The position numbers and the translations under genes were made by a program. This document shows, in pieces, positions 1,191-45,283 of a stretch of DNA of 64,000 nt (position 1 is the stretch's first letter; every line of letters begins with the position of its first letter). This DNA is from Cytidiella melzeri. Lineage: Eukaryota > Basidiomycota > Agaricomycetes > Polyporales > Irpicaceae. Location of the stretch: positions 1-64,000 of the forward strand of contig JABYQR010000182.1 in NCBI GenBank assembly GCA_022592445.1, read 5' to 3'. Below the pieces are notes generated by a model. The model had not been told where the DNA came from, searched no databases, and saw only the letters and a program-made list of their open reading frames with translations.

Positions 1191-1915
1191 TGTCACAGAT
1201 TTTCAATGTTTCTACAAGACTTGCCTTACCAGGCAACGGTATTACTGGGAATATTTAAGCGCTTGTCAAGCGCTTATCCAGCGCTTATCCGGCGTCTATT
1301 TAGGCGCTTATCCAGCGCTTATCTGGCGCTTATCAGGCGCCTATTCCGGCGCTTATTCTCAGTGCCTATCAATTGATGCGCTGATGCGCCTTCTGTCTCT
1401 GATGCGCTGATGCGCTCCTTTCCTTATCTGGGTATCACATGATAGAACTCTCTGGAACATTGTGGAACATGCTGGAACTATGATGTCATAGTATAGAACA
1501 TTCCATTAGATGATGTCATAGTTCTTAGAACCTTCTGGAAAAGTCTAGCCTTGTCTTAGAACAAGCTAGAACAAGTCTAGCCTTGGAGCTGGGTCATGGG
1601 GTCAGGTCATGGGGACAATTGCTATTGGTTGATTATTGAAGTGGCACCACTAGGGCATAGGGCATGCTTAGTAAGGTAGATTACTTCGCTTACTCATGTA
1701 GGTATTAGGGGTCTTAAGGTAGTACCTGGGGTCCTCCCCTTCATGTATATATAGAGGCACTCCTGAGGGCATATCCCCTCAGTCTTATCCACTCTGTTGA
1801 ACCAGGACTACTCAGTACCCACCAGTACTTCGCTCACCACCACTCTAACTCTCTATTACACACTATCTCCCCAAGTTTATCAACTTATCTGGTAAGTAGT
1901 AACCTTACTGTTACA
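1191..1915 (+). repeat. 5' LTR of gypsy element
   Basis: The LTR is 725 bases, begins TGTCACAG and ends CTGTTACA. It is near-identical to 8824-9547. The U3 portion holds a run of imperfect repeats of the type AGCGCTTATC or GGCGCTTATC (about 1257-1350), then repeated short blocks around TCTAGCCTTG and CTGGGTCATGGGGTC, and a TATA box. Confidence 0.95.
1746..1790 (+). promoter_or_regulatory. LTR promoter: TATA box and predicted transcript start
   Basis: TATATATA at 1746-1753 is followed about 30 bases later by CAGTCTTATCC (1780-1790). That 11-mer is the exact reverse complement of the primer site at 1919-1929, which predicts transcription to start at or next to 1780. The same arrangement is present in the 3' LTR. 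Confidence 0.7.
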
Positions 1916-1918
1916 TTT

Positions 1919-1929
1919 GGATAAGACTG
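1919..1929 (+). other. Primer-binding site, self-priming (Tf1/sushi type)
   Basis: GGATAAGACTG lies three bases after the 5' LTR. It does not start with the TGG expected for a tRNA 3' end at the LTR border. It is perfectly complementary over 11 bases to the LTR segment about 30 bases downstream of the TATA box. In Tf1 and related elements the first 11 bases of the RNA fold back on the primer site and are cut to give the primer. Confidence 0.75.
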
Positions 1930-2495
1930 CCCCTACTCCCTCACGTCTCTGGACGTGCTGGAGGTTTCTTTCCCTTTCTTCTAGGTCTTGTGCCTGTGCG
2001 TGGGCCCCTTTACAAACCCTCTAGACATAGAGGTAGCCGGACCATAGGCTTTAAGTGGTAGTCATGTCTAGGCTTTGCCTTGATGTGCACAACTTGAATC
2101 ACCCTCTCGCCCGACGCTCCTAGAGCTGATCAGAGCAGGGGTTGGCATTATGCCAACATGATGAAAGTGTGCCTCCCCACAGGCGATAGTGGAGTCTGGT
2201 GTCAGACAGCTCGTTATAAGAGCTAGACAACAGGACTAGAAACCCATGAGTGCCTAGGCACGTAGACGGGTAACTTGTTCTGGCCGGACTTAGGGTCAGT
2301 GTAATACTGATCCGCCAACCATTTGCCGCATGGGTGGAACCATGACGGAGATCCTTACACCACCGGACCTGGAGAGAGAGTCCAGGCCGACGCCGGCACT
2401 ACCCCACGCACACACAGGACCTCTCCTTTATGGAGATTTTGTTCCGCACACCACTGAGCTGACAAGCTCATCACACTTTGTCACACACAGTCACC
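1930..2495. other. Leader of gypsy element, no supported gene
   Basis: About 570 bases of untranslated leader between the primer site and the first ORF. Only a short reading frame (ATG at 2330, 65 codons) is present, with no recognisable protein. I see no other feature. Confidence 0.6.
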
Positions 2496-3160
2496 ATGCC
2501 TCTCTCCCGCTTCATCGCTGCTAGGTCTGGCCGCAAGGCCCCCTACTCTGTCCCTGTCCGCAACGAAGTCACTGGACTTCAAGAACGCCTCTCAGTCTCC
2601 AAGGAGACTCTTGACAAGTTCAAGGATGCTGGCAAGCCTCGCCGGCTTAAGTATCCCGACAACAAGCCTCTCATCAAGAGGATCGACCTCGAGGAGCAGG
2701 CTCGCACCACCATTGAGCATGAGGAGAACCAGGATCGTATGAGACAGGTCTCTCACCTCATGTCTCAACTCAGCCTTCTCGACCGCATCGAGAAGCAGGA
2801 GAAGGAAAAGGCTGAAAAGCTTACCCTTCTCCAGCGTATTGAGGAGCGCAATCAACGCGCTTACATTCCCACTCCCACTCCGCTCCCCGCTTCTCTACAC
2901 TTCCGTAAGACGAAGCTTATACTTCGTCAACAGGAATTCAACCAATGGTCACGGCAGCTTGCCAACGGCTTGAGCCTGTGCTCAAGAAGTTGGACGCATC
3001 TTTCGCGAGTGGTGGGCAATCTTCTAGCCACCAGATCAACACTCGTCGAGAAAAAGCACAGCTGCTGATCGGTCGTGTCTTCATGATCGAACAATGGTTC
3101 AAGGAGAATCACACGGACAAGATGTCGAATAGGGAATGGAGGATGCTAAAAAGGACTTGA
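2496..3160 (+). pseudogene. Accessory ORF upstream of gag (one frameshift)
   Basis: The start is the ATG at 2496 in a good context (CACCATGCC). The frame runs to about 2946, where it must shift by -1 at a GG run to continue as the frame that ends at 3160. The joined product would be about 220 residues: a basic N-terminus, a charged coiled-coil-like middle (IEHEENQDRMRQ, IEKQEKEKAEKL) and a basic C-terminus. I do not recognise a family. It lies on the same strand as gag, 285 bases upstream, in a place where most gypsy elements have no gene. It could be a structural or RNA-binding accessory protein, but nothing in it decides this. Confidence 0.5.
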
Positions 3161-3444
3161 AGAGTTTAGGCAGGATTAGTTTTGTAGACATACATCGGAG
3201 ATGGGGTTACATACTAGAATTGCTAGAAGGGCTGTTCGACATGAACGCCTTTGTATATGCGGAAATGGAATAAAATGTATGGGCTGACAAGCCTCATTTT
3301 ATTTGGTGACAACTTCCTGAAAAGGATTTAATGTGTGAAAACAACTCTGACAAGAGTTCAATGTGTGAAAAGTGGTGTTTTCTCTTCTTCTTATACTAGA
3401 AATAGTATTTCGCTTATCCTTTGCTAACTAAGAAATTAGAAGCA
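3161..3444. other. Spacer between accessory ORF and gag
   Basis: AT-rich, non-coding. Two near-copies of GTTCAATGTGTGAAAA or TTTAATGTGTGAAAA occur at about 3330-3372. No function is inferred. Confidence 0.4.
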
Positions 3445-6400
3445 ATGGCCTCTCAATCCAACGCCGGATCCAACGCTGCCCCCGCTGCTGCTTCCAACCT
3501 CACCCACTCTGTTCCTTTCGGCAAAATTACGCCGATTGTCTACAACCCTTCAGTTGAGAACTTTGAGCAGCATATCTTCCACAACCTAAACACGGCCCAA
3601 AGGGCTTTTACTCGTACGGTTGAAGGTGGAGCAACTGCTGCCATCGTCCACAATATGATGAATCAAATGGTTCTTATCTGGAACAACCAGCTGTCCCTCC
3701 TGGAGGATAACCTCCAGGAATACGTCGATAAGGTCGCTCAAGACCTATATTCGCAGTCCGCTGCTGACACCCAAGTCCAGCGGATGGACACTGACCTGGA
3801 TATGGTCAAAACAACGATCACAAACGTGGTCAACCAGATCAACCAGCTTCCCTTGTCTCAAGGACAAGGAGGATCCTCGCGCCAGCCCAAGATTGGCGAA
3901 CCCCCGGAGTTCAACGGCACTGACGGCAAGGTCAAGTTCAACGAGTGGTTGAACAAGATCTCTCTGTGGCTTGTCCACGAGAACGTTGCTACTGACAGGC
4001 AACGTATTGCCGTCGCGATGAACCGGCTCTCAGGCGCGGCGGCTCAATACATGGAGCCGTGGATCAAGAAGCTGACGAAGGGTCAGACAATCGGAACGTG
4101 GGAAGAGTTCGAAAATGAGCTCAAGGTACAATACGGTCAACGGGACGACAAGGAGGGCGCTCGAAAGGAGCTTAACGCCTTGTTCAACAATACAGATTTG
4201 GCACACAAGAACTTCGTCAAGTATGCGGAACGCTTCCGTACGCTTGGCAGGCTTTCTGGATATGAGGACGACTTGCTAATTCACAAGCTCAAGCACGTCA
4301 TCGAGAAGGACATGTGGCTTGTCATGATCGGGAAAGATGAAAATCAAATTCCGACAACTTGGCCGCAGTTCCTCGACCTCTTGCTCGACATCCACAAGAA
4401 GGTCTATCCTGAGAAAGCACAAGGCCAGATCTTCGCGAAGGAAAAGGATACGTCCACGCCTATGGAGGTGGACGCAGCGGACAAAAGAAGAAGAAGAATG
4501 AGAAGCGGAACAAGGGCAAAGGCAAGGAGGTAAATTCGACTGAAAAGTCGGAGAAGTTCTGCCACATCCACAAGTCGAAAGGACATAACACGGATGAGTG
4601 CAACCTCAACGGCCTCAAGAAGAAGCCTGATGACAAGAAGAAGGATGGGAAGAAGGATGGAAAGTCTTCGGCGCCGAAGAAGATTCGGGCAGCAGATGCC
4701 GAGGACTCAGGATCGGACAGCGAGGCCGAAGCCCCTAAGGCTTCGTCGTCAAAAACAAAAAACGTAAATACCGCGCGCCTAGAGTTGGCGGCTCACATAG
4801 AGGAGGTTCCAACCGAAGATGATGAACCTTCGACTCCTCACCCGTCCCCTGACAAGGGTAAAGGGAAAAAGCCGACCAAGGGCAAGGATTTTTTCCGAAG
4901 CGTCATGTGACTCCCTGCGAACATGAAAGCTTAGGCCCTGATACCCTCGATCTTTGTACCGTAGATACTGTCAAAAATGTAGCGCGTTCAAAGAATTCAT
5001 TTTTTCTACCGGTTACAATTTGGGTATATGGAAAGAAAGTGCAGGTCGAAGCTCTGGTAGATTCAGGAGCCACAACCACGTTCATCAGTAAGTCAGTGGT
5101 TGAAAGTAACAATCTGGTAACAAATCAACTGGCATCACCGTTTAACGTCATCAACGTCGACGGTACTCCCAATAAAGATGGTCAAATCACTCACTCAGTA
5201 CGTGCATACCTAGAAATAGGTTCGCACCGAGCAAGACAACACATGCTCGTCACTGATCTCGGTAGTAAACAAATGATTATCGGGATGACCTTCTTACGCC
5301 GCCACAATCCGGAGATAGATTGGGCAAATGGCGAGTGGAGATTTACCAGATGTCCTGAACTCTGTGCCCCAAGAGCTCGTAAAAACATCACTGTAACTCA
5401 AGAAGAGATCGATGAACTTGAGTTACCTAAGGGACGTTCGGTGTCAGACAACCTGGACGGAATAGGAAATGTCGACCCGGACAACCCTCACATCCACTGG
5501 ATCGACTTAGACGATCCAGAAGACCAAGAAATAGCGGAAATAATCGCTGAACTTTCTGGAAAGGAAGATGAGGGCTTTGAAGACGGCTTTGACGAACAGG
5601 AGTCCGTCAATTGGAAGCCATTAGTACCGAAATATCTTTGGGAATTTGGTGAGTCTTTTCAAAGAAAAAATCAGAGCGCATGCCGTTACGCAAACCGTAC
5701 GATCACGCGATCGAATTTGAGGAAGGTGCCTCCCTTCCCAAAGCGGCTAAACTATACCCGCTGTCTCCAATGGAAAAGAATTCTCTAGATCAATGGATGA
5801 AGAGGAACTCCGAAAAGGTTACATCCGCAAATCGAAAAGTCCAATTGCAGCACCTGTGTTCTTCGTCAAGAAGAAAGATGGCTCGTTGCGCCTTGTGCAA
5901 GACTACCGAAAACTGAACGACATCACGGTGAAAAACCGGTACCCCATACCTCGCATCAACGATTTAATCAATTCGTTAAGCAAGGCTAAGGTCTTCTCAA
6001 AGATTGATCTTAGATGGGGATACAATAACGTTCGCATCCGAAAGGGTGACGAATGGAAGACGGCGTTCATCACACACCGTGGCTTTTCGAAGCCAAGGTG
6101 ATGTATTTCGGTTTCAGCAACGCACCTGCGACGTTCCAAGCCATGATGAATGAAATTCTGAGTGATTTGATCTTAGAAGGACATGTCATGGTGTATCTCG
6201 ACGACATCCTCATCTTCACTGAAGACAAGAAGGAAAACCGTCGTATCACACAGGAAGTGCTCAAGCGTCTACGCGAGAACGATCTATTTGCCAAACCGGA
6301 AAAATGCTTTTTTGAAAAAGATCGCATTGAGTACCTAGGCATGATCATTTCTCACGGACATATCGAGATGGATCCAGCCAAACTCACCGGAGTTACTGAG

Positions 6401-8587
6401 TGGCCGCGACCTGAAAAGGTTAAGCAAGTCCAAGCCTTCTTAGGCTTCGCCAATTTCTATCGGCGTTTCATCAAGGACTTTGCTAAACATGCGAAACCGC
6501 TCACTATTCTTACAAAGAAGGACCAACCCTGGATCTGGAAAGATGCTCAGGAACAGGCCTTCCAAAGTCTGAAACAGGCTTTTACGTCAGCACCCATTCT
6601 GAGGATACCAGATGACGAAAACCCTTTCCGTCTGGAAACAGACGCTAGCGACTTTGCTACAGGAGCGGTACTATCACAACTGGACCCAGCTGACAAGCTG
6701 TGGCATCCAGTAGCCTTCTACTCTAAATCACTCAACGTCCATGAACGTAATTATGAGATATACGATAAAGAGTTGTTGGCTATTATCCGCGCCCTGGAAG
6801 AGTATCGTCAACATCTGGAGGGACATCCGATTACCGTAGAAATATGGTCGGATCACCAAAACCTGACATATTTCAGGAATGCCCAGAAGCTGACTCGGAG
6901 ACAAGCGCGATGGGCGTTATACCTCACGCGATTTAATTTCGTGCTCCGGCACAAACCCGGAAGACCATGCTTACCGCAGATCCTCTGTCCAGGAGGCCAG
7001 ATCATGAAGAGGGGGTAAATTCCGATAACGAGGACAAAATTCTCCTTAAACCCGAGTTTTTTGCCATCTCTGCTATCGAAAACTCTCATGACTCGCCTAT
7101 CAACGATGATGAAATCCTAAGACGGGTCAAGGAAGCACTCATGAACGACGAAGTTACCAAGGACTATCAGCAGTTACTTAACTCTGGTCCTAGGGAGTTC
7201 AAGAAATCACTAGAGGAATGGAATTTTGAGAACGGATTACTCCTATACCGTGGAAAAGTCTACATCCCCAAAGATCAGAAATTAGATCTGAGACGCCAAA
7301 TCATCCAGATGCATCACGATCTACCTTCTGCCGGACATCCTGGCAGATGGAAAACGTACGAACTGATCTCGAGAAACTACTGGTGGCCAGGTTTAACCAC
7401 TGATGTCAAGAAATACGTGACAGGCTGTGACACATGTCACGGATGAAGACTCGTCCGCAACAGCCTTATGGACCACTCATCCCTAATCCGGTTCCGGCCG
7501 AACCATGGGATATCATGACTGTCGACTTGATTACTCAGTTACCGGAGTCTGATGGCTTCAATGCTATCTGCGTAGTCGTAGACCGCCTCACTAAAAGGGC
7601 GCACTTCTTCCCTATTGTAAACGAGTTCTCGGCAAAAGATCTTGCAGCTCTACTCTATGAGAGAGTCTGGACCCTTCACGGGTTACCTTTGCAAATCATT
7701 TCCGACCGAGGTCCACAATTCGCAGCAGATTTATTCCAGGAATGGTGTAAAATGCTAGGGATAGAATCTACAATGACTACTGCATATCATCCGCAGACTG
7801 ATGGTCAAACTGAACGAGTTAATCAAACCTCGAACAGTACCTGCGTTGTTACGTTGATCAACTACATGACGACTGGGCTAGACTGCTCAGTTCGGCTGAG
7901 TTCGCATACAACAATGCAGCGCACGAGGGAACTAAGCACTCGCCTTTCTACCTCGAATACGGCAGACACCCTAGAGCTGGTCCAACGCTCACTAAGGACC
8001 TGAAAAGGTCTGACATGAATGACATCATGTGGAACCGCTTGCAAGCTCAAGAGCATGCTAAAGCGGCGTTACAACTTGCGGCTGAACGCATGAAGTGGTA
8101 CTATGACAAGCACGTCCAGAAGGTCCCCTTCAACGAAGGCGATCAGGTCATGCTAGATCTGAGAGACTACCAAAAATCTGGACATAAGCTGTCAGCCAAG
8201 TACTACGGCCCATTCAAGATTGCTGAAAAGCTCTCGCCGGTCACATTCAGACTGGAATGGCCCGAACGTTCACCAAGGATACACCCTGTATTCCATGCAA
8301 GCAAGTTGGTACCGTATAACGAACCTGAATTCGAAGGCCAAAAGCTGGAGATGCCTCCGCCAGATATCATCGACGGAGAAGAAGAATACGAAGTCGAGAA
8401 GATTCTCAAGTCAAGACGTACAGGTCGTGCCAAAAAGCTTCAGTATTACATACGCTGGAAAGGCTACGGACCGAACGACGACACGTGGGAACCTGTAGAA
8501 AACATCACGCACGCTCAAGAAGCGATCAAGAAATTCTACGACGATCATCCCCGAGCTATTCGCTCAGCTACGATTTACTGTGTATAA
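3445..8587 (+). pseudogene. gag-pol polyprotein, broken by eight -1 frameshifts
   Basis: Gag starts at ATG 3445. It has a retrotransposon-gag domain (NEWLNKISLWL, then WEEFENELKVQYG) and a C-H-H-C zinc-like motif (CHIHKSKGHNTDEC, about 4560-4603). Protease has DSGA at 5060-5071. Reverse transcriptase has VQDYRKLN and the catalytic YLDD at 6194-6205. RNase H starts at LETDASDFATGAVL (about 6635). Integrase has an HHCC zinc finger (about 7310-7437) and a DDE core (VDLIT, SDRGPQF, TERVNQ; about 7520-7820). A GPF/Y-like module and a chromodomain (YEVEKIL, YIRWKGYG, DDTWEP; about 8385-8560) close the protein. Codon phase steps 1,0,2,1,0,2,1,0,2 along the gene, which means eight single-base losses and few or no nonsense changes. 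The undamaged product would be a single polyprotein of about 1,715 residues, as in Tf1-like elements. Confidence 0.9.
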
Positions 8588-8808
8588 GTCACGAACAACA
8601 CACCAAGGATCATCCACGATCCAATGACGCAACCGAGGAGGGTACGGACTAGACTACCATCAGCCAATGAGGTGTGAACCCCGTCAGGGGCGTCGGTAGA
8701 AGCCGCTAGAGTCACTCGGAACTGCTTAGGCACCCTCTTGACAATGGTGAAAAAGTGGACTCAATGACCAAGGTGTTCGTTCAAAACTCTTTGCACGGAG
8801 TTCAAAGC
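8588..8808. other. 3' untranslated part of gypsy element
   Basis: Non-coding stretch between the pol stop and the polypurine tract; nothing else recognised. Confidence 0.5.
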
Positions 8809-8820
8809 AAGAAGGGGGGG
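8809..8820 (+). other. Polypurine tract
   Basis: AAGAAGGGGGGG ends four bases before the 3' LTR (followed by TAA, then TGTCAC). This is the expected primer site for plus-strand DNA synthesis. Confidence 0.9.
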
Positions 8821-8823
8821 TAA

Positions 8824-9547
8824 TGTCACAGATTTTCAATGTTTCTACAAGACTTGCCTTACCAGGCAACGGTATTATTGGGAATATTTAAGCGCTTGTC
8901 AAGCGCTTATCCAGCGCTTATCCGGCGTCTATTTAGGCGCTTATCCAGCGCTTATCTGGCGCTTATCAGGCGCCTATTCCGGCGCTTATTCTCAGTGCCT
9001 ATCAATTGATGCGCTGATGCGCCTCTGTCTCTGATGCGCTGATGCGCTCCTTTCCTTATCTGGGTATCACATGATAGAACTCTCTGGAACATTGTGGAAC
9101 ATGCTGGAACTATGATGTCATAGTATAGAACATTCCATTAGATGATGTCATAGTTCTTAGAACCTTCTGGAAAAGTCTAGCCTTGTCTTAGAACAAGCTA
9201 GAACAAGTCTAGCCTTGGAGCTGGGTCATGGGGTCAGGTCATGGGGACAATTGCTATTGGTTGATTATTGAAGTGGCACCACTAGGGCATAGGGCATGCT
9301 TAGTAAGGTAGATTACTTCGCTTACTCATGTAGGTATTAGGGGTCTTAAGGTAGTACCTGGGGTCCTCCCCTTCATGTATATATAGAGGCACTCCTGAGG
9401 GCATATCCCCTCAGTCTTATCCACTCTGTTGAACCAGGACTACTCAGTACCCACCAGTACTTCGCTCACCACCACTCTAACTCTCTATTACACACTATCT
9501 CCCCAAGTTTATCAACTTATCTGGTGAGTAGTAACCTTACTGTTACA
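8824..9547 (+). repeat. 3' LTR of gypsy element
   Basis: The LTR is 724 bases. Against the 5' LTR it shows two substitutions (ATTACTGG/ATTATTGG and GGTAAGTAG/GGTGAGTAG) and one lost T (CCTTCTG/CCTCTG). Confidence 0.95.
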
Positions 9548-9552
9548 TGCTC
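9548..9552. repeat. Target-site duplication, right copy (TGCTC)
   Basis: Direct copy of 1186-1190, immediately after the 3' LTR. Confidence 0.95.
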
Positions 9553-10915
9553 CTGACCGACAGGGAGCTGGTAAACAGGAGCAGGGCGATCAAAGGCGGA
9601 ATGGTTCTTGTACTCCCAGTCTGCAAACGCGGGTGCTTGGAGAAGCAGCTGCATTACCATGTATATTCGCTGCTCATAGAGACGAGGGCCATACTCGTTC
9701 GCTTTGTGGAAGATGTCGAGGGCAGTCAATGGATTGGTACACTCACGAGTGCGTTGTTCCATGTACGCGACACGATCTGGTGGCTTTACCGACGCGTCCT
9801 TGACAATGTATATTGTCCCAGCAGTGCTGCTATCGAAGTGGGATTGTTTGTTCATGCGTTGCTCGTAGATCCTGAACGCGAGGTTGAGGTTATCATGGCC
9901 GCCAAAGAATATGTGTTTCAGGACGTCGTCCAGCATACGACGACGGTTGGACTCGGAGATGCGTTCGATGCCGGTGTACACCCACTTCTGACTCATGGTA
10001 AGTCCGAAGAGGTGTGTCGTGTCATTCGCTTTGGCCGCGAGTCCAGAAGCCTTCAGATAGATGCTAAGCAGCTTTTGGTAGCGGCAGCGGTTGTGCGAGC
10101 GTCCGTAGTGTAGCATCGATCCGATCATAAATATGCGCTATGAACAGATATTAGCACAATATGACAGTGCGAGCCGGGGGACTTACTGCACTGTGGTCCT
10201 TGTATTTGTTCCTCTTCTCCTGGAGTGGCGTGCACGAGAGGGAATGCATCAGCTTCCAGAACGTGGGCTGTGCGGCTTGCATCTTTGGGATGTCGTCCTT
10301 GAGCCTGATGGAAAGGAGATGCTCTTCAGATAGCTCCTTCTGTGGCGAGCGCAGCTGGGGGGCGAATAGGCGCATCTCGCGGTTGATACGCGCCGTGACG
10401 TTGTTCAGTGCCCAGGCGTCCATGGCAGCTCTTGCGGCACGAGTGCGGACGCCCCTTTGGTGAGGGCGCGGCGGCTTATACCACCGGTTCAAGATACCGG
10501 GCAATTGCTCGCTATGCATCAGCGCGGTTCGTGCGTACCTATTAATTATCAGGTTAGAGAGGCCCGAGAATGTGTCAGAAACTTACCTGATGGTGCCCTC
10601 AATACTCGTCTCCGCTGCGGGGATCTCTAAGTTCCAGCTGAGATAGTGTAGGAATGTGGTGGTGTCCATCTGAACGTCAGCCATGAACTTGATGATGTTA
10701 ACGAGCTTTTGTGCGATGACCAGGTCGGGCATGGTCTTCAAGTGGTTCATGAACAAGGTTGTTCGACCTAGCGGTCCTGTCTTGCTCGTGGACCAAATGT
10801 CAACGCGCAGCTGCTCTTCGGCCGACAAGGGGTCATCTTCATCCTCGTGGCGTTCATCGTCGTCGTCGTCGAGTTCCTCGTGGTCTTCGTCATCTTGAAC
10901 ATGAACGGGTGGCAT
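9548..10915 (-). pseudogene. DUF6589-type gene, 5' part (split by retrotransposon)
   Basis: This is the upstream half of the interrupted gene. The likely start is ATG at 10915 (MPPVHVQDDED), followed by an acidic stretch rich in D and E. Coding blocks are 10915 to about 10586, about 10535 to 10190, and about 10130 to 9548. The third block carries GLTMSQKWVY, FGGHDNLNLAF and QSHFDSSTAGTIYIV, all shared with the paralogue at 12504-15261. The protein is cut after QLPVGQEH by the gypsy insertion and resumes at 1190. Two intron positions differ from the paralogue: this copy has no intron after the LGRT block but has one before YARTALMH. Divergently oriented to the second copy, 1.6 kb away. Confidence 0.6.
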
Positions 10916-11422
10916 GCTGGAAGCACAGCAAGAGCGTGGAGAGTAGGCAATGGACTGAAAACAAAACAAGAAGTGTCAGACGCGCCGAGTGATGAGACAA
11001 CGCTGCCGACTTGCTACTCACAATGTTGCCCTTTCGCGTGTACCGTAGGTGTCAAGCGCGCCGCGAAGAGGGCAGAATGTTGGGAATGAAAACAAGTACG
11101 GTGGGGGGGGGGACGTTGGAGGCGATACGGGGGACAAGCACGTTGGAGGCGATACGGGGGACGAGCACGTCGTAGTGGCCGTCGACTGCAGCTTCACATG
11201 TGCGGGAAATCGGACGGGAGAGCGTTTACTCAAAGTTTTTAGATTAGATTACAAGGCCTTCAATTGATCTAAACGCTCGCTGACTTCAGGCCATCCACGG
11301 CACGTGCTAATGACCCACATCCCCCTCTACGAAGCACACCAGACCCTCAAGCCTGCGGCCTGTACTGTCTTTTTCGCACTCCGCGGCTTGATTAGGAAGG
11401 AGCCCTGGCGACGTCTGCTTGA

Positions 11423-11431
11423 GGGTCTGGG
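11423..11431. repeat. 9-base direct repeat, left (GGGTCTGGG)
   Basis: It lies immediately outside the left inverted repeat and is identical to 18378-18386 immediately outside the right one. It fits a target-site duplication. The caution is that GTCTGGG is also part of the inverted-repeat end motif. Confidence 0.55.
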
Positions 11432-11550
11432 TAGTCTCGTTCCCAGACGCCCTGGTTCACCTTCTAAAACAGGCAGGAGACAGCAAGAAACGAGACAAAG
11501 AAGAGAACCAGGACGTCTGGTGATATCGGACGGGCGCTCGTAGGTCACTC
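11432..11550 (+). repeat. Left 119-base inverted repeat
   Basis: It begins TAGTCTCGTTCCCAGACG and ends CGGGCGCTCGTAGGTCACTC. An internal hairpin pairs CCAGACGCCCTGGTTC (about 11443-11458) with GAACCAGGACGTCTGG (about 11505-11520). Confidence 0.85.
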
Positions 11551-11689
11551 TCGGCACGCCGCGGCATCTCGTTTCCAAGTCGAAGATCTGTTGGGTGCCT
11601 GGCGTTTAACTATAGATTACCGACAATGTGCCAGCGCACTGTCGGTCGCTATTGCTCTCTCTACCACGGCCAACGCTACGATTACAACC

Positions 11690-11880
11690 ACCGCCCTGTA
11701 CACCCTGTCGCAGCGGAGCATCTGCTGCGACGAGTTGTACAACCCCTTTGTGCGCAACCACGGCCACCACTACGACTACAGCCACCGCCCTGTACACCCT
11801 ATCGCAGCGGAGTATCTGCTGCGACGAGTTGTACAACCCCTTTGTGCGCAACCACGGCCACCACTACGACTACAACCACT
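11690..11880 (+). repeat. 94-base tandem repeat, about two copies
   Basis: CCGCCCTGTACACCCT recurs at 11691 and 11785, and AACCCCTTTGTGCGCAACC recurs with the same 94-base spacing. A shortened third copy follows, then a run of CCACGACCACGACC-like triplets. The period is not a multiple of three, so the open frames here are a by-product of the repeat and not one repeated peptide. Confidence 0.8.
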
Positions 11881-12503
11881 TTGTGCGCGACCACGGCCAC
11901 GACCACGACCACAACTACCACCCTTCGTGCTCTCGCTAGCAGAGCATCTGCTGCGCTGAGTTGCTAGACAGCCAGCAAACCTTTTTCCTCTGTGCCACCA
12001 CCCTTCACACTCTCGCCGGCAGAGCTTCTGCTAGTGATGAGCTGTACGACCTCCTTGTGCACAATCACCACCACCATGACGTCTACGGCCCTTTTCTCCC
12101 AGCCTTTCGACCGGCTCAGCTTGCGCAGCACTCACGGGGCACACTCACCGCAAGATGCATCGTCTTCTCAAACATCCGCGCAGCAGGCTTCGTCCCTCTC
12201 ACCTATTCATCACCTGAGGCACAGGATGTCAGCTGCACTGCAAGCGCAGGACCTCGCCGCACACATCTTGCTCTGAAGAGTCTTAACTCATCTCGCCCTC
12301 CGCCAATTCCCCCTTCACTCATTCACTCATTCCGAGCTTCATTCACCTGTCCTCTTCCCATTGTGCCGATGTTTTTCCTCCCCATACAATTTCTGCACTT
12401 CCGCCTCAATCATGTATCTACCTTGAAGGTTTACAATAGTAACTCCGCTGTTTCTCCCACTCAAGTAGCATGAGCCTGACCGCAAAACCTGGAGCAACTC
12501 ACA

Positions 12504-15261
12504 ATGGAGCCGCTTTACATGGACGATCTCGACACGGATGACGACGAACGATACGCAGACGAACTTGATCCGCCCTCGCAAGCTGAACAAGTTCAGATAG
12601 ACGAACAGGTACGACGTCCTGGCGGGATACTCGGACGCACTCTGCGTCTGAGTAATATTTTAAGACGATTGCCAGGTATGTCGCATTCAGTTTTCGCATC
12701 ATAGATGTCGCACTTACCTTTTAAACGTCTGTAGAAGACGAGATTGCTCGGCGCATTGCCACCATCATCGAACAGATGGAGGCACTTGATTTTGACGTTG
12801 CTAATTTCATGTGGTACATGAGCTGGTCGTCTCAGGCAGTCACTAGGCACCCCCGGATTCAGTACGCGCGAACCGCGTTTCTGCATTGTGACGAGTTCCC
12901 TCACATGCTTCAGAAGTGGAGGGATGGCCGCCGAGGAGCTGGTACCAAGGCTGCCCGTGATACCCTCGACTCCTGGTCTATCAACAACGTCGAGCTGCTG
13001 ATGAATCGGGAGATGCGACAGCTGGCACCGTACCTACGTTCTCCGCAGAATGAGCTCACGGAAGAGAGCCTGCTATCCATCAAGCTCACCGACCTTGCCG
13101 CGCAGATTCAGACCATTGCACCAATCTCATATTGAATCTTACACCCGCTTTCGTCCACTCCGAAGCAGCTCTCTCGACGCAGTACAAAGGATCATCTTGC
13201 GGTATGTCTCGCTTGTTTCGTCTGCGGATCCGATCTGTCACTTATCTCATATGTTGTCTCAGCCCATCACGATGATGATCTGTGTGTCGCAGTATGGACG
13301 CTCGAGCCACCGCTGTAAACTCCAGAAGTTTAACAGCGTATACTTCAAGGCATGCGGATTGGCTGCACGGGCTAACGACACCACTCACTTGTACGGACTT
13401 ACGATGTCCCAGAAGTGGGTTTACAGTGCGCTTGAAAAGCTCTCAGAGGTTGCTCACAATTCCATGCTTCGGGACATCGTACTGTACCCATGGTTTGGCG
13501 GCCATGACAATCTTAACCTCGCGTTCAAGGTTTACGAGCAACGCATCGCCAACCAGTCTCATTTCGACAGTGGGACCGCCGCTACTGTCTACATCATCAA
13601 GCACCCTAATGTTACCGCTCCCAGTCGTCTAGCCTATCAAAAGCAGCGCGCGTTAGGTGTGCAACGTCCCATCAACAGCGCGGATATCATTCTCATGGAC
13701 GCCAAGGCCACCCTCAGCAATCGACAATTCGAGATTCATACCATCCTTCGGTTCCTAATCGACTCGCCCGCCTTTGACAGGTCCACCTGGCCACATAACG
13801 AGAGCCCAGCCCTATTGGGCCCTCAGCCAGTCACTCAGCTGCCGACTGGTGACGCGCATGTCCTGTGTCAATATATGCTTGACACGGTGCACATTGAGGA
13901 GGCCTCACAGGACGGCAACCGCCAATGTCTCGAGGAATGGATGAAGCAAACGGGGATCAGTGGTGACCGGGCTCGTCAGGAGCCCGCTCGCGACCGACTC
14001 GTTGTCTGGGTTGGTGATCAGCTCACCACGGTACGTATTCGAGCTCTCAAGAAGGACCGAAGCCTGGACGATTCATTCGTCCAGCGTTTCGAGCAGTTTC
14101 TTGAGATGTTTGGATGGTTCCATGCTCAGATCGCCGAGGAGCACTCAATACACCGCCAATATCACACGACAAGCAAAGCGTTTGGCCTCAAGTCCGCATT
14201 TGAAACCTTGAAGCGCAAAGGCCTCAACTCGCCATCTGTACAAGGTATGTCAATGTCTCTCACACATGATCTCATTGCTAACGTTGTGATAGGAAATTTT
14301 CATCATACTATGCAGGAGGCCCTAAGACACACCGCGGAGGCACGGTTCCGAGACCTTTGGCTTGTTGTCGGCCGGGTCAAAGATCTCACGCAGCTTCGTC
14401 GCCGTACTCCCCAGCAGCTTATCAACCTCGCTGCAAAAATTCACGACAGCTATGCGACAACGCAGGCACTCTCCGAGATGAAGCAGAAGCCGCGTGAGGA
14501 TCAGGACGATGTGCTCTACCAGAGCATTCAATTCTGTCGGGACATCCTCAACTACATCAGTCTCGACGACGCCATCAAGATGGGGGATGTTGGTCGTTTA
14601 GAGAACCTCATCCCTCGACTGTTCTTCCGGTTCAATGGTGGCACGAGTAGCAACTACGCTATTGAGCTCCTGGAACTTTTGCAAGGAATGCTGCGCGAGT
14701 GGCCTGCGGAGTTAAGGTTTGTCTCATATCATGATACTCACCTTGTTACTGATCAATGTCTCAGGGCATTCATGACGCGCTATTGCTGGCTTGCCAACAC
14801 GAGCGGTCGTCCGGGTTGTTTCCTGGCATTTGACATGGTACAAGAACACAACATACGGGACATCAAGGTATGTTTGACTCAGGTTTTTGGATCTCACCGT
14901 CTAATGCATTTGATCGTGACAGCATATCTTTGCAGTTCACGGGCCTTTCTCTAGCTGGGAATACATCAAGAAAATCTCGGCTTCCATCCCAACCCAGCGC
15001 AAGATTAAAGATCACGTCGAAGAGAACTTCAATCATTTCCGTCGCGGCAAATCCCACACCACCCCGGAATATGAGAAGGATGTTGTTGCCCTTCAGAAGG
15101 TCTATCACGAAGGTGATGCCCATGTATACACTGCGGGTCGACACCTGGAATCAAAGCTTCCTGACTATGTACTGATGGGTAGCGAAGCTACTCGCATCGA
15201 CACCACAATTTTGCGGTGGTGGCAGAAGAGAGTCCTCGAGAAGTCAATTAGGGATGAATGA
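12504..15261 (+). pseudogene. DUF6589-type protein gene, full length with one in-frame stop
   Basis: Six exons with GT-AG borders: 12504-12675, 12735-13201, 13263-14244, 14293-14716, 14765-14867 and 14923-15261. Phases agree throughout and give 828 codons. The N-terminus is acidic. Central motifs are LTMSQKWVY, FGGHDNLNLAFKVYEQR, WVGDQLTTVRIR, FGWFHAQIAEEHSIH, ARFRDLWLV and LIPRLFFRFNGG. The C-terminus has FDMVQEHNIRDIK and WEYIKKISASIPTQ. Codon 191 is TGA (13133-13135) where the minus-strand paralogue has TGG (Trp). No intron can remove it. Translation could restart downstream, or the gene is dead. It converges with the RecQ gene, 228 bases away. Molecular function is unknown. The GDQLT and GWFH motifs are conserved in both copies and may mark an active site, which is speculation. 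Confidence 0.65.
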
Positions 15262-15489
15262 CCATGTGTATTCAAATTATCTGTCTATTACATCCATTTT
15301 ATACGCTTGTACGGACGCTCTGTCATGGGAGGCTCAAGGTCGAGAGTGAGACGCGAAGACGAGGCAGTTGGCATGGGACCGGTAGTAGATCGAGTGCGAG
15401 GCTGAGGCGTTTGAGGAATTTCAGGTACATCAGAGAGGTCCGAAGCTGGAACAACTGCAGAGCCAGACAATTGGGAAGACAAAAGCCAT

Positions 15490-18045
15490 TCAGAGGACAG
15501 GCAAGGCGGCAGGCTGAGATCGATCAATAACGAATTTCTTCGAGGAAGGGTTATACTGCTGAATGGTGCCCGGTCGCGGTATAGGAGGGAGTCCTCTCTC
15601 TTCACGGTCCTCATCGCGGGAAACTTGTCGAGAGACATTGTACGCTTGAGTGTACGCAAGTGTCCCTGAGACATTAGTCAAGCTCCGTTCCTCAGCATTG
15701 AGAGCCTTCTTAACCTCATTCAGCTGCGCAAATTCTTCGTCCATTTGAGTAAGATGCCACAGTAAGCTCCCGCTCATAGATTCGCACAGATGCCAATCTG
15801 GCAGGGCAGTCCTCAAGTCTTCCTCGGTCTTGATTCGAGCTTCAGTTGCCAAGAGAGATATCATGCGGTCGGGGAGCAAGCTTTCGGGGCCAAAGACCGA
15901 GTATCGGAAGTGTAGCAACCAGTAGTCAGCCCGCCACGCACGAAGAGACTTCAAAGCATGGCTCAGGCGGCTGTTCCATCGTTTCCCAGCGTTATTGGAG
16001 TAGATCGGCTGCGGAGGAGCTTGTACCAAAGGTCTTGTGGTAATCCGTCGGACAAGGTCGAGAGTTTCAGTCTCAAGAAGAGTCATGGGACGTTCCTGGC
16101 TAGTGACAAGCTTGCGAATGCAATTGTCGCAGCATGCCTCGATATCTGATATGCAAATGGTGAGTATTGATATTACTTTGATCTCGTACATACCTTTGTC
16201 ACAAGGGGGATTGTCGAAATGCTTGTCAGTGATTTCTCGTCGACAATCTTCATACTGTGTGAACAAGCGCATATGCTCCTCTACATTCTTACGATGCTGA
16301 AGCTCTGTATCCTCTTCTTCAGTGTCATTCTTCTTTGTGCAGCTATCCGCTGGTGCCTGAGCGTGTTCCTGATCCTGGCAATCTGCATCTGCGCGTTCCT
16401 GTTCATCAGTGCCTTGCGCGTCAAACACGTCCATCTCCTCGGGCTCGACCTTGATTGAAATCTCCTCGCTGTCTTTGTCTGCCTTCTTCTTTCCCTTCCC
16501 TAGTAAGCGGGTCTTGCGTTTCATCATTTGGAAGACTGACGACTCTGCAAGAAGAATAGCTACGGCAGGCTCGCCATCCCGACCAGCCCTTCCGGCATGC
16601 TGACTCCATTCATTGAGATTGGTAGGTATCATGTATTGCACTACCCAGCGTAGATCAGGTATGTCGAGTCCCTGTGATACTCACGCTCAGCTCAAGCTTC
16701 CGGCTAGATATGTAGACTCACCATACCAGCCACCTCTGTGGCGAAGAGAGTCCTAATCTTACCAGCACGGAAGTCACGCATGACTCGCGCTTTAGTCTCC
16801 GGATCACGAGGAGAGTATATAAACTCCATCTGGTCCCGGTACGGTGAGTCCTCTGGTAGCTTGTTGCGCAGATAAAGATACGCTTTTCGGGCAAGATCTT
16901 TCTTGTTGAAATAGACAATTGCACGCTCGAGATCTTCTCCTTTGCGTGCACGATCCAGGAGAAAATCTAATGATTCAAGATCATTCTCGCCCCCCTTCAT
17001 CCGGCACACGACAGGTGTAATATTCGCGCGATCGTTTCCAAGGTTCAAGACGAAGGATCCCTTACGCGAGAATGATAAGGTATTCATCACAGACTCTAGC
17101 ATGTCCGGAGGCAAGGTAGCTGACGCGATCATGATAGGCTTGGATGTTAAGAATGTTCGCGCCTTCTCCACTTCGAGGAAGGCTGTTCGGAAACTATCCC
17201 CCCACTCGGCAACACAATGGGCCTCATCCAGAATAGTGCCAAGAAATTCCTTGGTCCATTCAGCATTCCGTATCATCTGCGAGAACTTCGGGTGCTTGAA
17301 GACCATCTCGGGTGATGTCACAATGACACGGAAATTGCCAGCTTGTAGCTGCTGCTCATACGTCCAGGTGAGTTGGAACCGGCTCAATTGATGCATAACA
17401 TACTTTTTCTAGATCACTGTTCCATGTCTCTCCATTCACGGCCAGCGCGGGGTATCCCATCTCGTTGAAACGTGCAGCCTATCAGGTACAGTAAGTGCAC
17501 CAATCCTCATTGACGTGTGTCTCACACAAATGTCACCCATCAGGGAGACTTACCTGGTCTTTCTCGAGCTCGTTAAGTGGAGATAGGATCAGAATCTTTG
17601 ATGTCTTGGTCTCATCTGCTGCCAATGCAGCGGCGAAGGCCATAGTTTTGCCGGAGCCAGTCGCAGACACCAGAGCCGAATCCAACCCCAGAGCAAAAGC
17701 CTCCCCGACATCTCCCTGATAATAGCAGAGAATCTTCCCATGGGTACGTGCTTGTATTTCGTCCTGCATGAACTGGCGAGTCTTCGCCCATGAGTACTGC
17801 CGGTCTTTGTTCTTTCTAGCTACCTCCCGGGCTTGCTGAAGGATCCGGTAAGATTCTGCATGCAGGGGAGTCTCCGGTGCAAGCGGCTGAATACGAGCAA
17901 TGACCGCAGCATCAGGCTCATCTGGGGATGGCTTATTACGCGTCGGATGCGGAGGGGGACGAGCGGGAGCCTTGTTCTTCTGTGTATTACTCTGATTAAT
18001 AGACTTCTTTTTCTTCTGGGGCGGTATGGTCGATTTGTGGGGCAT
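15490..18045 (-). CDS. RecQ-family ATP-dependent DNA helicase
   Basis: Five exons on the minus strand: 18045-17554, 17478-17404, 17351-16722, 16671-16194 and 16145-15490. They join in frame to 776 residues. It unwinds DNA 3'-5' using ATP if it behaves like its family. Walker A is SATGSGKTMAF in the first exon, the RecQ-type motif II is LDEAHCVAEWGDSFR, motif V-like VAGMGLDIPD is restored across an intron, and motif VI is QHAGRAGRDG. The RecQ zinc-binding pattern follows (CRREI, CDK, ACCDNC) with its last part joined across the fourth intron. A long lysine-rich acidic insert (about 16300-16560) splits the C-terminal region, and no HRDC domain is seen. The start at 18045 precedes a basic, lysine- and proline-rich tail. 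It is not a housekeeping Sgs1 (too short) and lies inside the candidate element. Confidence 0.88.
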
Positions 18046-18258
18046 TTTTGGAAGTATAAAGTGACTGAATATTGTATTGAGTGCTTAGGATATGTATTAT
18101 GAAGTTTCTAGTGGCTATATGCGAGGGGGACACGAGAGAGGACAAGGAAACATATGTCGACGCGACGCGACCACAGACCACTTGCAGCAGACGCGCACAG
18201 ATTAGATTGGGCGTCTCGCTAGATATCTCGTCGTGACGTAGAAAGTTCTTTGATGGGG

Positions 18259-18377
18259 GAGTGACCTACGAGCGCCCGCCCAAATACACCAGACGTCTAG
18301 GCTTCTTTCCTTGTCTCCTGTCTTGCTGTCTCCTGCCTCGTTAGGAAAGTCTGCCTAGACGTCTGGGACCGAGACTA
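18259..18377 (-). repeat. Right 119-base inverted repeat
   Basis: Inverted partner of 11432-11550, equal in length with no gaps. Its internal hairpin uses CTAGG/CCTAG where the left copy uses CCTGG/CCAGG, so the paired bases have changed together. Confidence 0.85.
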
Positions 18378-18386
18378 GGGTCTGGG
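18378..18386. repeat. 9-base direct repeat, right (GGGTCTGGG)
   Basis: Identical to 11423-11431 and directly outside the right inverted repeat. Confidence 0.55.
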
Positions 18387-18529
18387 TACGAGACTAAAAA
18401 TCGGTTTCGCATCAAACAGTGTCCAAAAACAGAAGGAGTTCTATTTTAGGTACGAGCGTCAGCCTCTTCCCTGAGCGTAGCGAGGTTGTGTCCCATAACG
18501 TCTGGGAACGAGACTACCACTTCACCATA

Positions 18530-19261
18530 CTGTGCTGTGGGGTCCTTTGCAAATAAATCGGCATGAGACAGATTGTAAAATACACAGGTACTCAAATACT
18601 TACTCAAAAATCACAGTTTTTTGACTGTTCAGTAGAATAGCATCTGATGTATGTTTTCCGGAGGTTTTCTAGACGAAAAGATGAGTTGAACGAGGGACGG
18701 CACGTTGCCGTCGTCGAGAGTCATGTTTTGCAAAAGTCCCTGCTCTTTCCGTCACAGATTGATAGGATTGTCACGCGGCAAATTGAAGCACCGCTCGGCA
18801 TAGTGTGTAGCGCTCTACGACGTCTGGTGCGTATGCACCGCTAGATTCTCGGATCAGAGCGGAGTTCAAGCTCTCGTCGCTCTGTTTGTACTCTTCGTCA
18901 CGCAGATGCAAAACTTCCCCGTCCCAAGCACACCCGTGTCCCAAGCACTCGATCGAAACTCACTGACACGGAGCAATGCTATTCAAGAAACCTGTCCAGA
19001 ATTTTCGAGCTGACCGCCCGACAGCATCTTTGGGATCTGGTTGGATCTGGTCAGATATAGGCCTAAGAGATGGCCCAAACCACGCCGGTAACTCTCGGTA
19101 GGCTGCGTCCCTCCTTCAAATATTACAAAAAGTACATGTATATTCATGAAGTGAATAGCTGCATATACCGAAACTTTTACCGGTACGCAAACTGTTGTGT
19201 GAGTGAGTCTGGGGGAGGATTTGCAAAAGTCCCCGCATTTGCAAAGGACCCCACAGCACAG
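18530..19261. mobile_element. Small non-autonomous TIR element (MITE-like), TA flanked
   Basis: CTGTGCTGTGGGGTCCTTTG plus CAAAT (18530-18554) recurs as a perfect 25-base reverse complement at 19237-19261. The dinucleotide TA flanks both ends (18528-18529 and 19262-19263). The 732-base interior has no coding capacity and repeats the subterminal motif TTGCAAAAGTCCC (about 18728 and 19221). The TA flank suggests a Tc1/mariner-like or related transposase acting in trans. Confidence 0.65.
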
Positions 19262-19959
19262 TATCCTCGAGGGTGTCATCTGGATACACTCCAAAGTACG
19301 CAATTGCTATTGTTCCGGCCCCTGACCAGAACCAGGTGCTGATCCCCGCTCACAGAAATTACATCCACGCCTCCTCCTCCCTCACGCAGCATAGTGCGAG
19401 ACTACACACTATAAGAGGGGGCCCTATAACGGCATTTTGCTGTTAGTCAGTCCTCGTAGAGAAGCAGCGTCAATCCGATTCGCACAATTCTAGACTGAGG
19501 TTGGGTAGAGGGGCAGCCTGTGTGACCATTATGGTGCACGTCAATCATGGCCTCTGAGGCAAGAAACGAGGTGTGAGCGAAACACATTCAGGGTCAAGGA
19601 ATATGATGAAAGATTAGCGGTATGCCTGGCATGGTCAGGTGTAGCAATCTGAGGACGTGTTGGTAGCAAGCAGCGCGTTCCAGAGAAGCGTGAGTGTGGC
19701 ACATTGCTACATGCACGAAGAAGACTCGAACGGGTTCCCAGCCTGACGCCACCAGCTCTCCGCAAGCGGAGTGTGCACATCCAAATCTAAAAGATCCCAG
19801 CTGTATAAAAACAAAGGCAGCAGTCGTCCAAAGAGCCCATCACACACCTCTCCAGCAACCTCTGTCCTACGCCCGTCTTCCTCTCTCCCCTCCCCATACC
19901 TTAGGATTCAACAGGCATCAGCTAAACTCTTCCCTTCTACCATCCTATCCCTCGAAACC

Positions 19960-30803: not shown

Positions 30804-30919
30804 CTTCGCAGGTCGTGAAGTATACAATACTTGCCAGTGGCCCTGTGCCGCCAGGTGTTGCGCCAGTTTTGCTCAAGATGATTGTGCATCCTTGATGACA
30901 TTTTATGTTTTGTTTGTAT

Positions 30920-31013
30920 GGCAAGATGGCCGAGCGGTCTAAGGCGCTACGTTCAGGTCTTTGAACCACCTTCGTAGTCCGAAAGGGCGTGGGTTCGAAT
31001 CCCACTCTTGTCA
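30920..31013 (+). tRNA. tRNA-Leu(CAG) with a 14-base intron
   Basis: The acceptor arms GGCAAGA and TCTTGTC pair fully with one G-T. D-arm region TGGCCGAGCGGTCTAAGGC and anticodon stem CTACG/CGTAG are present. The loop is TTCAGG, then an intron of about 14 bases after position 37, then T. A long variable arm typical of Leu and a T-arm GTGGG/CCCAC with loop TTCGAAT follow. Box B (GGTTCGAAT) is perfect. It stands 117 bases from the LYS12 start, divergent. Confidence 0.93.
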
Positions 31014-44592: not shown

Positions 44593-45283
44593 ATAGAATT
44601 TCAAGTTGTCGAAATGCACGGCCTCAGAGGGGAATAAGTACGCTAATGAGTGCATTCACTAGAGCTGTGCTCTTGCAATGGCAAGATGGTCGAGCAGTCC
44701 AAGGCGCTACGTTCGGGTCTCTTTCGTATGTAGTTCGAACAATCCGGGCGTGGGTACGAAACTTACTCTTGTTATTCGTCGGCGTGGAAGCTACATTGAT
44801 TTGCAGAATCATGACACTTTTCCCCCAACCGACGTCAGTCTCAGGCCAAGCCAACACCTCTTCACAGCCTGAAATGACTTCCATGTTTTCCAAGTTCATT
44901 GGATCCCCCATCGGTTTCTGCAAGACACAGAGAGCCAGCCTCGCAGAGATCGAGCCGTTGCAGACTACATCCTCCTTACATAACGGCAGGTCGATACTTG
45001 CTCTACAAAATCCGTATGCGGTCGGCAACACAAATCTGGACTCACAAACATCGGAATATCCTTCGGGCGAGTGGTGGCACTGAATAACGGTCTTGTATTA
45101 GGTAACAGACACATGAGGGTAGAATTAGCCGCGATACATCCATATATAATGCGAAGAGAAAATCGTGGATGCAAATGTTGAAAGCCAAAAAACGTCTCTG
45201 CGTGGGTCTCCAATCTATTCAAGGCTAAAATCGCGGGTTCTTAATTGATATTCTCTGCGATACTGCTCTGGCCGTCTAAACTC
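44593..45283. other. Intergenic stretch with tRNA relic
   Basis: Apart from the decayed tRNA-Leu copy at 44680-44774 there is no supported feature. Open frames here have no recognisable product. Confidence 0.55.
44680..44774 (+). pseudogene. tRNA-Leu pseudogene
   Basis: Strong similarity to the tRNA-Leu(CAG) gene at 30920-31013, including the same intron position and most of the A box (TGGTCGAGCAGTCCAAGG). The T-loop is changed from TTCGAAT to TACGAAA, the T stem is weakened, and the anticodon reads CGG. Box B is lost, so transcription by Pol III is not expected. Confidence 0.75.

Follow-up and report, generated by a model that had tools for sequence, protein, structure and literature searches.

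Organization of the locus

We analyzed a 64,000-nucleotide stretch of the genome of the basidiomycete Cytidiella melzeri (contig JABYQR010000182.1, positions 1 to 64,000; hereafter, the window), which harbors a 6,946-base element at 11432-18377. Between its 119-base terminal inverted repeats lie two genes, one encoding a protein of the DUF6589 family (PF20231) and the other a RecQ-type helicase (Table 1). An earlier note, made from the letters alone, had described gapless inverted repeats about 78% identical, two convergent genes between them, a direct repeat outside both ends and extra copies of the end motif just beyond the element, and all four observations held. The repeats align without gaps, with 93 of 119 positions identical (78%), reaching 17/18 over the outer 18 bases and 20/20 over the inner 20 bases. 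When lengths from 4 to 14 were tested, only a length of 9 gave a direct repeat in register at the borders, and the two copies of this target site duplication, GGGTCTGGG, match exactly. The end motif GTCTGGGNNCGAGACTA occurs four times in the window, each time without mismatch (up to two were allowed) and at the positions given in the earlier note, versus 0.11 occurrences expected from shuffled sequences.

The DUF6589 gene on the forward strand and the RecQ gene on the reverse strand converge, and both are split by short introns, as judged by eye, which marks the window as eukaryotic. In a Pfam search of the window, PF20231 matched positions 13662-14873 with an E value of 1.8e-91. The helicase pieces matched the DEAD domain of Pfam, together with a Helicase_C match below its cut-off; their sequence also matched the solved structures of WRN, BLM, RECQ1 and RECQ5 and contained the motifs ATGSGKT, DEAH, SATLP and QHAGRAGR. 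The regions of the helicase motifs and those of the candidate catalytic triad of the DUF6589 protein are open reading frame, and a TGA in the conserved N-terminal region of the latter represents either a nonsense change or part of an unrecognized intron. In one divergent pair, the ratio of nonsynonymous to synonymous substitution rates (dN/dS) was low for both genes.

Table 1. Features of the element and of its surroundings in the window
Feature	Position	Strand	Remarks
Left terminal inverted repeat	11432..11550	+	Alignment of repeats; genome matches
Right terminal inverted repeat	18259..18377	-	Alignment of repeats; genome matches
Target site duplication, left copy	11423..11431	.	Exact match to 18378-18386; single copy in uninterrupted relatives
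Target site duplication, right copy	18378..18386	.	Exact match to 11423-11431
Putative transposase gene, DUF6589 (PF20231)	12504..15261	+	Split by several short introns; start codon (ATG) and exon borders placed by eye
TGA in frame of conserved N-terminal region	13133..13135	+	Terminates open reading frame 12776-13135; reading by eye
Predicted catalytic codons (D, D, E)	13506, 14016, 14844	+	Positions derived
RecQ-type helicase gene	15490..18045	-	Open pieces 17533-18045, 16704-17396 and 15490-16641; exon borders approximate
Short tandem array (94-base and 39-base units) between left repeat and transposase gene	11663..11915	+	
Last 10 bases of older element hit by the insertion	18387..18396	-	Joined flanks match uninterrupted ends; rest of element left of 11431
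Older reversed relative: terminal part and part of DUF6589 gene	9517..11431	-	Open reading frames 9517-10128, 10151-10519 and 10583-10969
End fragment of third related element, terminus 18516	18397..18516	-	End motif 18500-18516

Further copies and their 9-base duplications

The genome searched comprised 49.7 Mb in 731 contigs, the window lying on contig C93 (88,911 bases), and the left and right 119-base repeats gave 17 and 19 matches, respectively, in overlapping lists. A second two-ended copy (C545:79063-86736) has a 9-base duplication of its own, GGATATCTG. Over 4,736 and 2,218 aligned columns, this copy shares 96.8% and 97.4% identity, respectively, with the window element, which it exceeds in length by about 0.73 kb owing to an extra internal stretch. 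No allelic empty site for it was found within the assembly, its joined flanks matching only the two flanks themselves. On C97 and C49, one left and one right end each run off the contig end and their flanks share GATTGGTGC, suggesting one insertion; the interiors match the window element only partly, which makes this either a copy that was rearranged or another one.

Short relatives were also found, with exact 9-base duplications at C395 (157 bases), C101 (136 bases) and C56 (969 bases, with a nested element of 803 bases) and a duplication matching at 8 of 9 positions at C216 (156 bases). Overall, an exact 9-base duplication flanks 11 of the 15 two-ended elements, namely, the window element, the C545 copy and nine others, while the duplication has one mismatch at C216, measures 8 bases at C722 and is absent at C679 and C401. 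None of 210 mismatched flank pairs, taken as a control, matched at 9 bases. Elements whose ends are of a second type, or closely resemble that type (C712, C75 and C92), have 9-base duplications, too. As for the distant convergent DUF6589/RecQ pairs on C720 and C724, their outer ends were not found (only internal inverted repeats on C720, none on C724), and C713 yielded a left end only. The C722 element with the 8-base duplication, which is exact, lies at C722:124433-131124 and is of the same kind as the window element.

We considered whether the ends form hairpins, folding 12 end stretches. The two window repeats gave z values of -1.55 and -2.74 and the left end of C725 gave -3.14, the other nine falling between -1.51 and 1.14; every one of the six folded CAG-type ends had a z above -1. 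With only 2 of the 12 stretches below -2, hairpin ends were rejected as a general feature.

Insertion into an older relative

We joined the flanks of the window element with a single GGGTCTGGG, the junction part being bases 1-102 of the query with the junction after base 92, and searched the genome. Uninterrupted junction matches were found at C274, C132 and C49 (100%) and at C141 (99%), and further ones, at 90-95%, at C667, C173, C124, C352, C115, C112, C168, C158 and C159. Because DUF6589 clusters adjoin eight of these places within a few kb on the same contig (C274, C132, C49, C667, C173, C352, C168 and C158), we regard them as ends that belong to another such family. The uninterrupted joined flanks elsewhere thus indicate that the window copy landed in an older relative of reversed orientation, 10 bases in from the end of the latter; these last 10 bases (TACGAGACTA) now lie to the right of the window element. 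An open reading frame of this relative (9517-10128) matched PF20231 with 17.8 bits, below the cut-off of 27, and its DUF6589 gene probably continues at 6-1253, where PF20231 matched above threshold. This gene was probably interrupted by a long terminal repeat (LTR) retrotransposon at 1191-9323, whose direct repeats of about 500 bases (1191-1691 and 8824-9323) are 100% alike and whose pol appears Gypsy-like from a reading of the open reading frames. On the right, positions 18397-18463 of a third related element match genome places adjoining other end motifs and RecQ genes.

The earlier note had raised a cluster of short dispersed repeats as the rival explanation. In this view, the repeats would surround two host genes by chance, and four end-motif copies do lie within about 7 kb, but the extra motifs are ends of older nested relatives. 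The second copy with its own duplication, the uninterrupted paralogous sites and 60 convergent gene pairs in the genome refute this explanation, to which we give practically no chance. Together with the short derivatives and the 11 of 15 exact duplications, they bear out the earlier proposal of a mobile element bounded by the 119-base repeats.

A second insertion into a related end was seen at C56:65986-66954, where the 803-base element lies within the end of a short relative and is flanked by the duplication GTTCCCAGA. A preference for ends as targets was nevertheless not supported, the pattern TAGTCTCGN{0,30}TAGTCTCG matching the genome four times and its reversed control four times as well. 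Just to the right of the nested ends, the window also contains a 28-base perfect inverted repeat (18527-18554 and 19237-19264), and shorter sequences related to it stand at 18726 and 19219. Elsewhere, a 43-base repeat, 91% alike (30918-30960 and 44678-44720), resembles two tRNA genes by eye.

The DUF6589/RecQ family in the genome

PF20231 gave at least 120 matches, which formed at least 82 clusters once same-strand matches within 2.5 kb were merged, these counts being lower bounds since 102 of 216 candidates were scored. The RecQ exon gave 93 matches in 88 clusters, some of them possibly host RecQ genes. At least 61 DUF6589 clusters have a RecQ match within 8 kb and 60 of these 61 pairs are convergent; the RecQ gene of the one remaining pair already belongs to another pair. 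Matched ends were also present in other DUF6589/RecQ families of the genome. We counted 162 occurrences of the end motif TAGTCTCGNNCCCAGAC and 40 of a second end motif, CAGGCTCCTANCCAGCC, versus none of either control. Among the matches listed, exact motifs stood on both sides of 12 of the 60 pairs, on one side of 10 and on neither side of 38, the TAG list covering 100 of the 162 places. Facing ends of the same type less than 3 kb apart, as expected of short derivatives, formed 20 pairs among the matches listed.

DUF6589 as a putative DDE transposase

The closest database match of the window DUF6589 open reading frame was a Cytidiella melzeri protein (92% identity over 79% of the query), and named DUF6589 members were present in many mushroom-forming fungi. 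A sequence search of solved structures returned a single match, with an E value of 0.73, which is not meaningful. For a comparison of the fold with RNase H-like transposases, which the earlier note had suggested, we used the predicted structure of a homologue (838 amino acids, predicted local distance difference test [pLDDT] score of 87). In a structure comparison, the first 28 of the 50 VIA rows were DDE transposases or RAG1, and the model aligned with Hermes, the P element transposase and RAG1. In known hAT and P element enzymes, the RNase H-like core bears a helical insertion, and such an insertion is also predicted in the core of the DUF6589 model. A Foldseek search of the Protein Data Bank ranked an unrelated particle first and transposases at E values of 0.01 and worse. 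DUF6589 is predicted to fold as an RNase H-like DDE transposase and is very probably the transposase of the element.

The acidic residues D305, D477 and E721 are conserved and may form the catalytic triad; D636 (49/49) and D651 (48/49) are conserved as well, and E721 was chosen from its late position in the core, without superposition.

Mutator-like elements (MULEs) produce duplications of about 9 bases, and ISCth4, an IS256-type enzyme, was among the structural matches, so that a MULE with an acquired RecQ gene had to be considered. However, no MULE match was found among Pfam hits to the transposase open reading frame at E values up to 0.1, where DUF6589 alone appeared, Hermes and the P element scored higher Z values than ISCth4, and the DUF6589/RecQ pair recurs convergently in 60 places, making a MULE most improbable.

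Proposed mechanism and implications

We propose that the DUF6589 transposase likely binds both ends, which it would connect to target DNA through strand transfer at sites spaced 9 bases apart; gap filling by host repair would generate the 9-base duplication. The RecQ helicase would probably serve to unwind DNA, either at the ends or where they are joined to the target, and the element would presumably move by cut and paste instead of copying. A likely function, that of a transposase, can be assigned to a family that Pfam lists as functionally uncharacterized and that has at least 82 clusters in this genome. The element also offers a well-delimited multicopy system, accompanied by short derivatives and by uninterrupted sites, in which to ask what RecQ does for a transposon. 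In addition, such DUF6589 and RecQ genes can be mistaken for host genes when fungal genomes are annotated, as has been pointed out in print (PMC6416283).

Relationship to known transposons

The element shares a predicted RNase H-like core with helical insertion with the hAT transposase Hermes and the P element transposase, but the modeled DUF6589 homologue is 6 to 7% identical to them over aligned residues. In addition, hAT and P elements generate 8-base duplications and are not known to carry RecQ.

Kolobok elements duplicate TTAA, unlike the 9-base duplications of varied sequence found here, which already disfavors the fungal lineage KolobokH. That lineage resembles our element in its fungal host and RecQ helicase (PMC9587614). 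Its RecQ is located downstream of the transposase domain, whereas here the two genes are separate and convergent (60 of 61 pairs), and we hold membership in KolobokH to be very improbable.

That the gene pair is new, as the earlier note had put forward for its candidate element, was not supported. Besides KolobokH, RecQ has been reported in Academ elements by Kapitonov et al. (cited in PMC3627910), DEAD and recQ domains occur in fungal Academ copies, which annotations often list as host genes (PMC6416283), and a helicase is linked to AcademH (PMC10045372). In the mushroom Marasmius oreades, insertions of putative nonautonomous Academ elements are widespread (PMC8290104). The 9- to 10-bp duplications of AcademH contrast with the 3- to 4-bp duplications of AcademX, a difference linked to helicase versus nuclease (PMC10045372), which sets AcademX apart from our element. 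AcademH occurs in Basidiomycota and is called low-copy (PMC10799480), unlike the at least 82 DUF6589 clusters of this genome.

We also weighed a separate, undescribed superfamily, in which DUF6589 would be a transposase lineage apart from Academ that gained RecQ and the 9-base duplication in parallel, the dozens of convergent units then constituting a new superfamily with RecQ as a fixed, coevolving partner. At least one further lineage of transposons, KolobokH, did acquire RecQ. Moreover, the term DUF6589 was absent from the literature searched and PF20231 appeared only in a physics paper (the paper defining AcademH lay outside the search); the link between PF20231 and Academ may therefore be unstated there. 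Nonetheless, RecQ, a 9- to 10-base duplication and a basidiomycete host together are the AcademH combination in the papers cited, and we consider the separate superfamily unlikely.

We thus file the window element, with high confidence, as an AcademH-type DNA transposon of the Academ superfamily with DUF6589 as its very probable DDE transposase and a separate, convergent RecQ helicase, because helicase, duplication length and host combine as in published AcademH, a lineage attributed to Kojima (2020, Mobile DNA 11:15). It has the terminal inverted repeats, the 9-base duplication and the superfamily 2, RecQ-type helicase of AcademH and, by prediction, the RNase H-like transposase fold; copy number aside, no difference from AcademH was found among the features compared. 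The element would accordingly represent a new family of AcademH and not a new kind of element.
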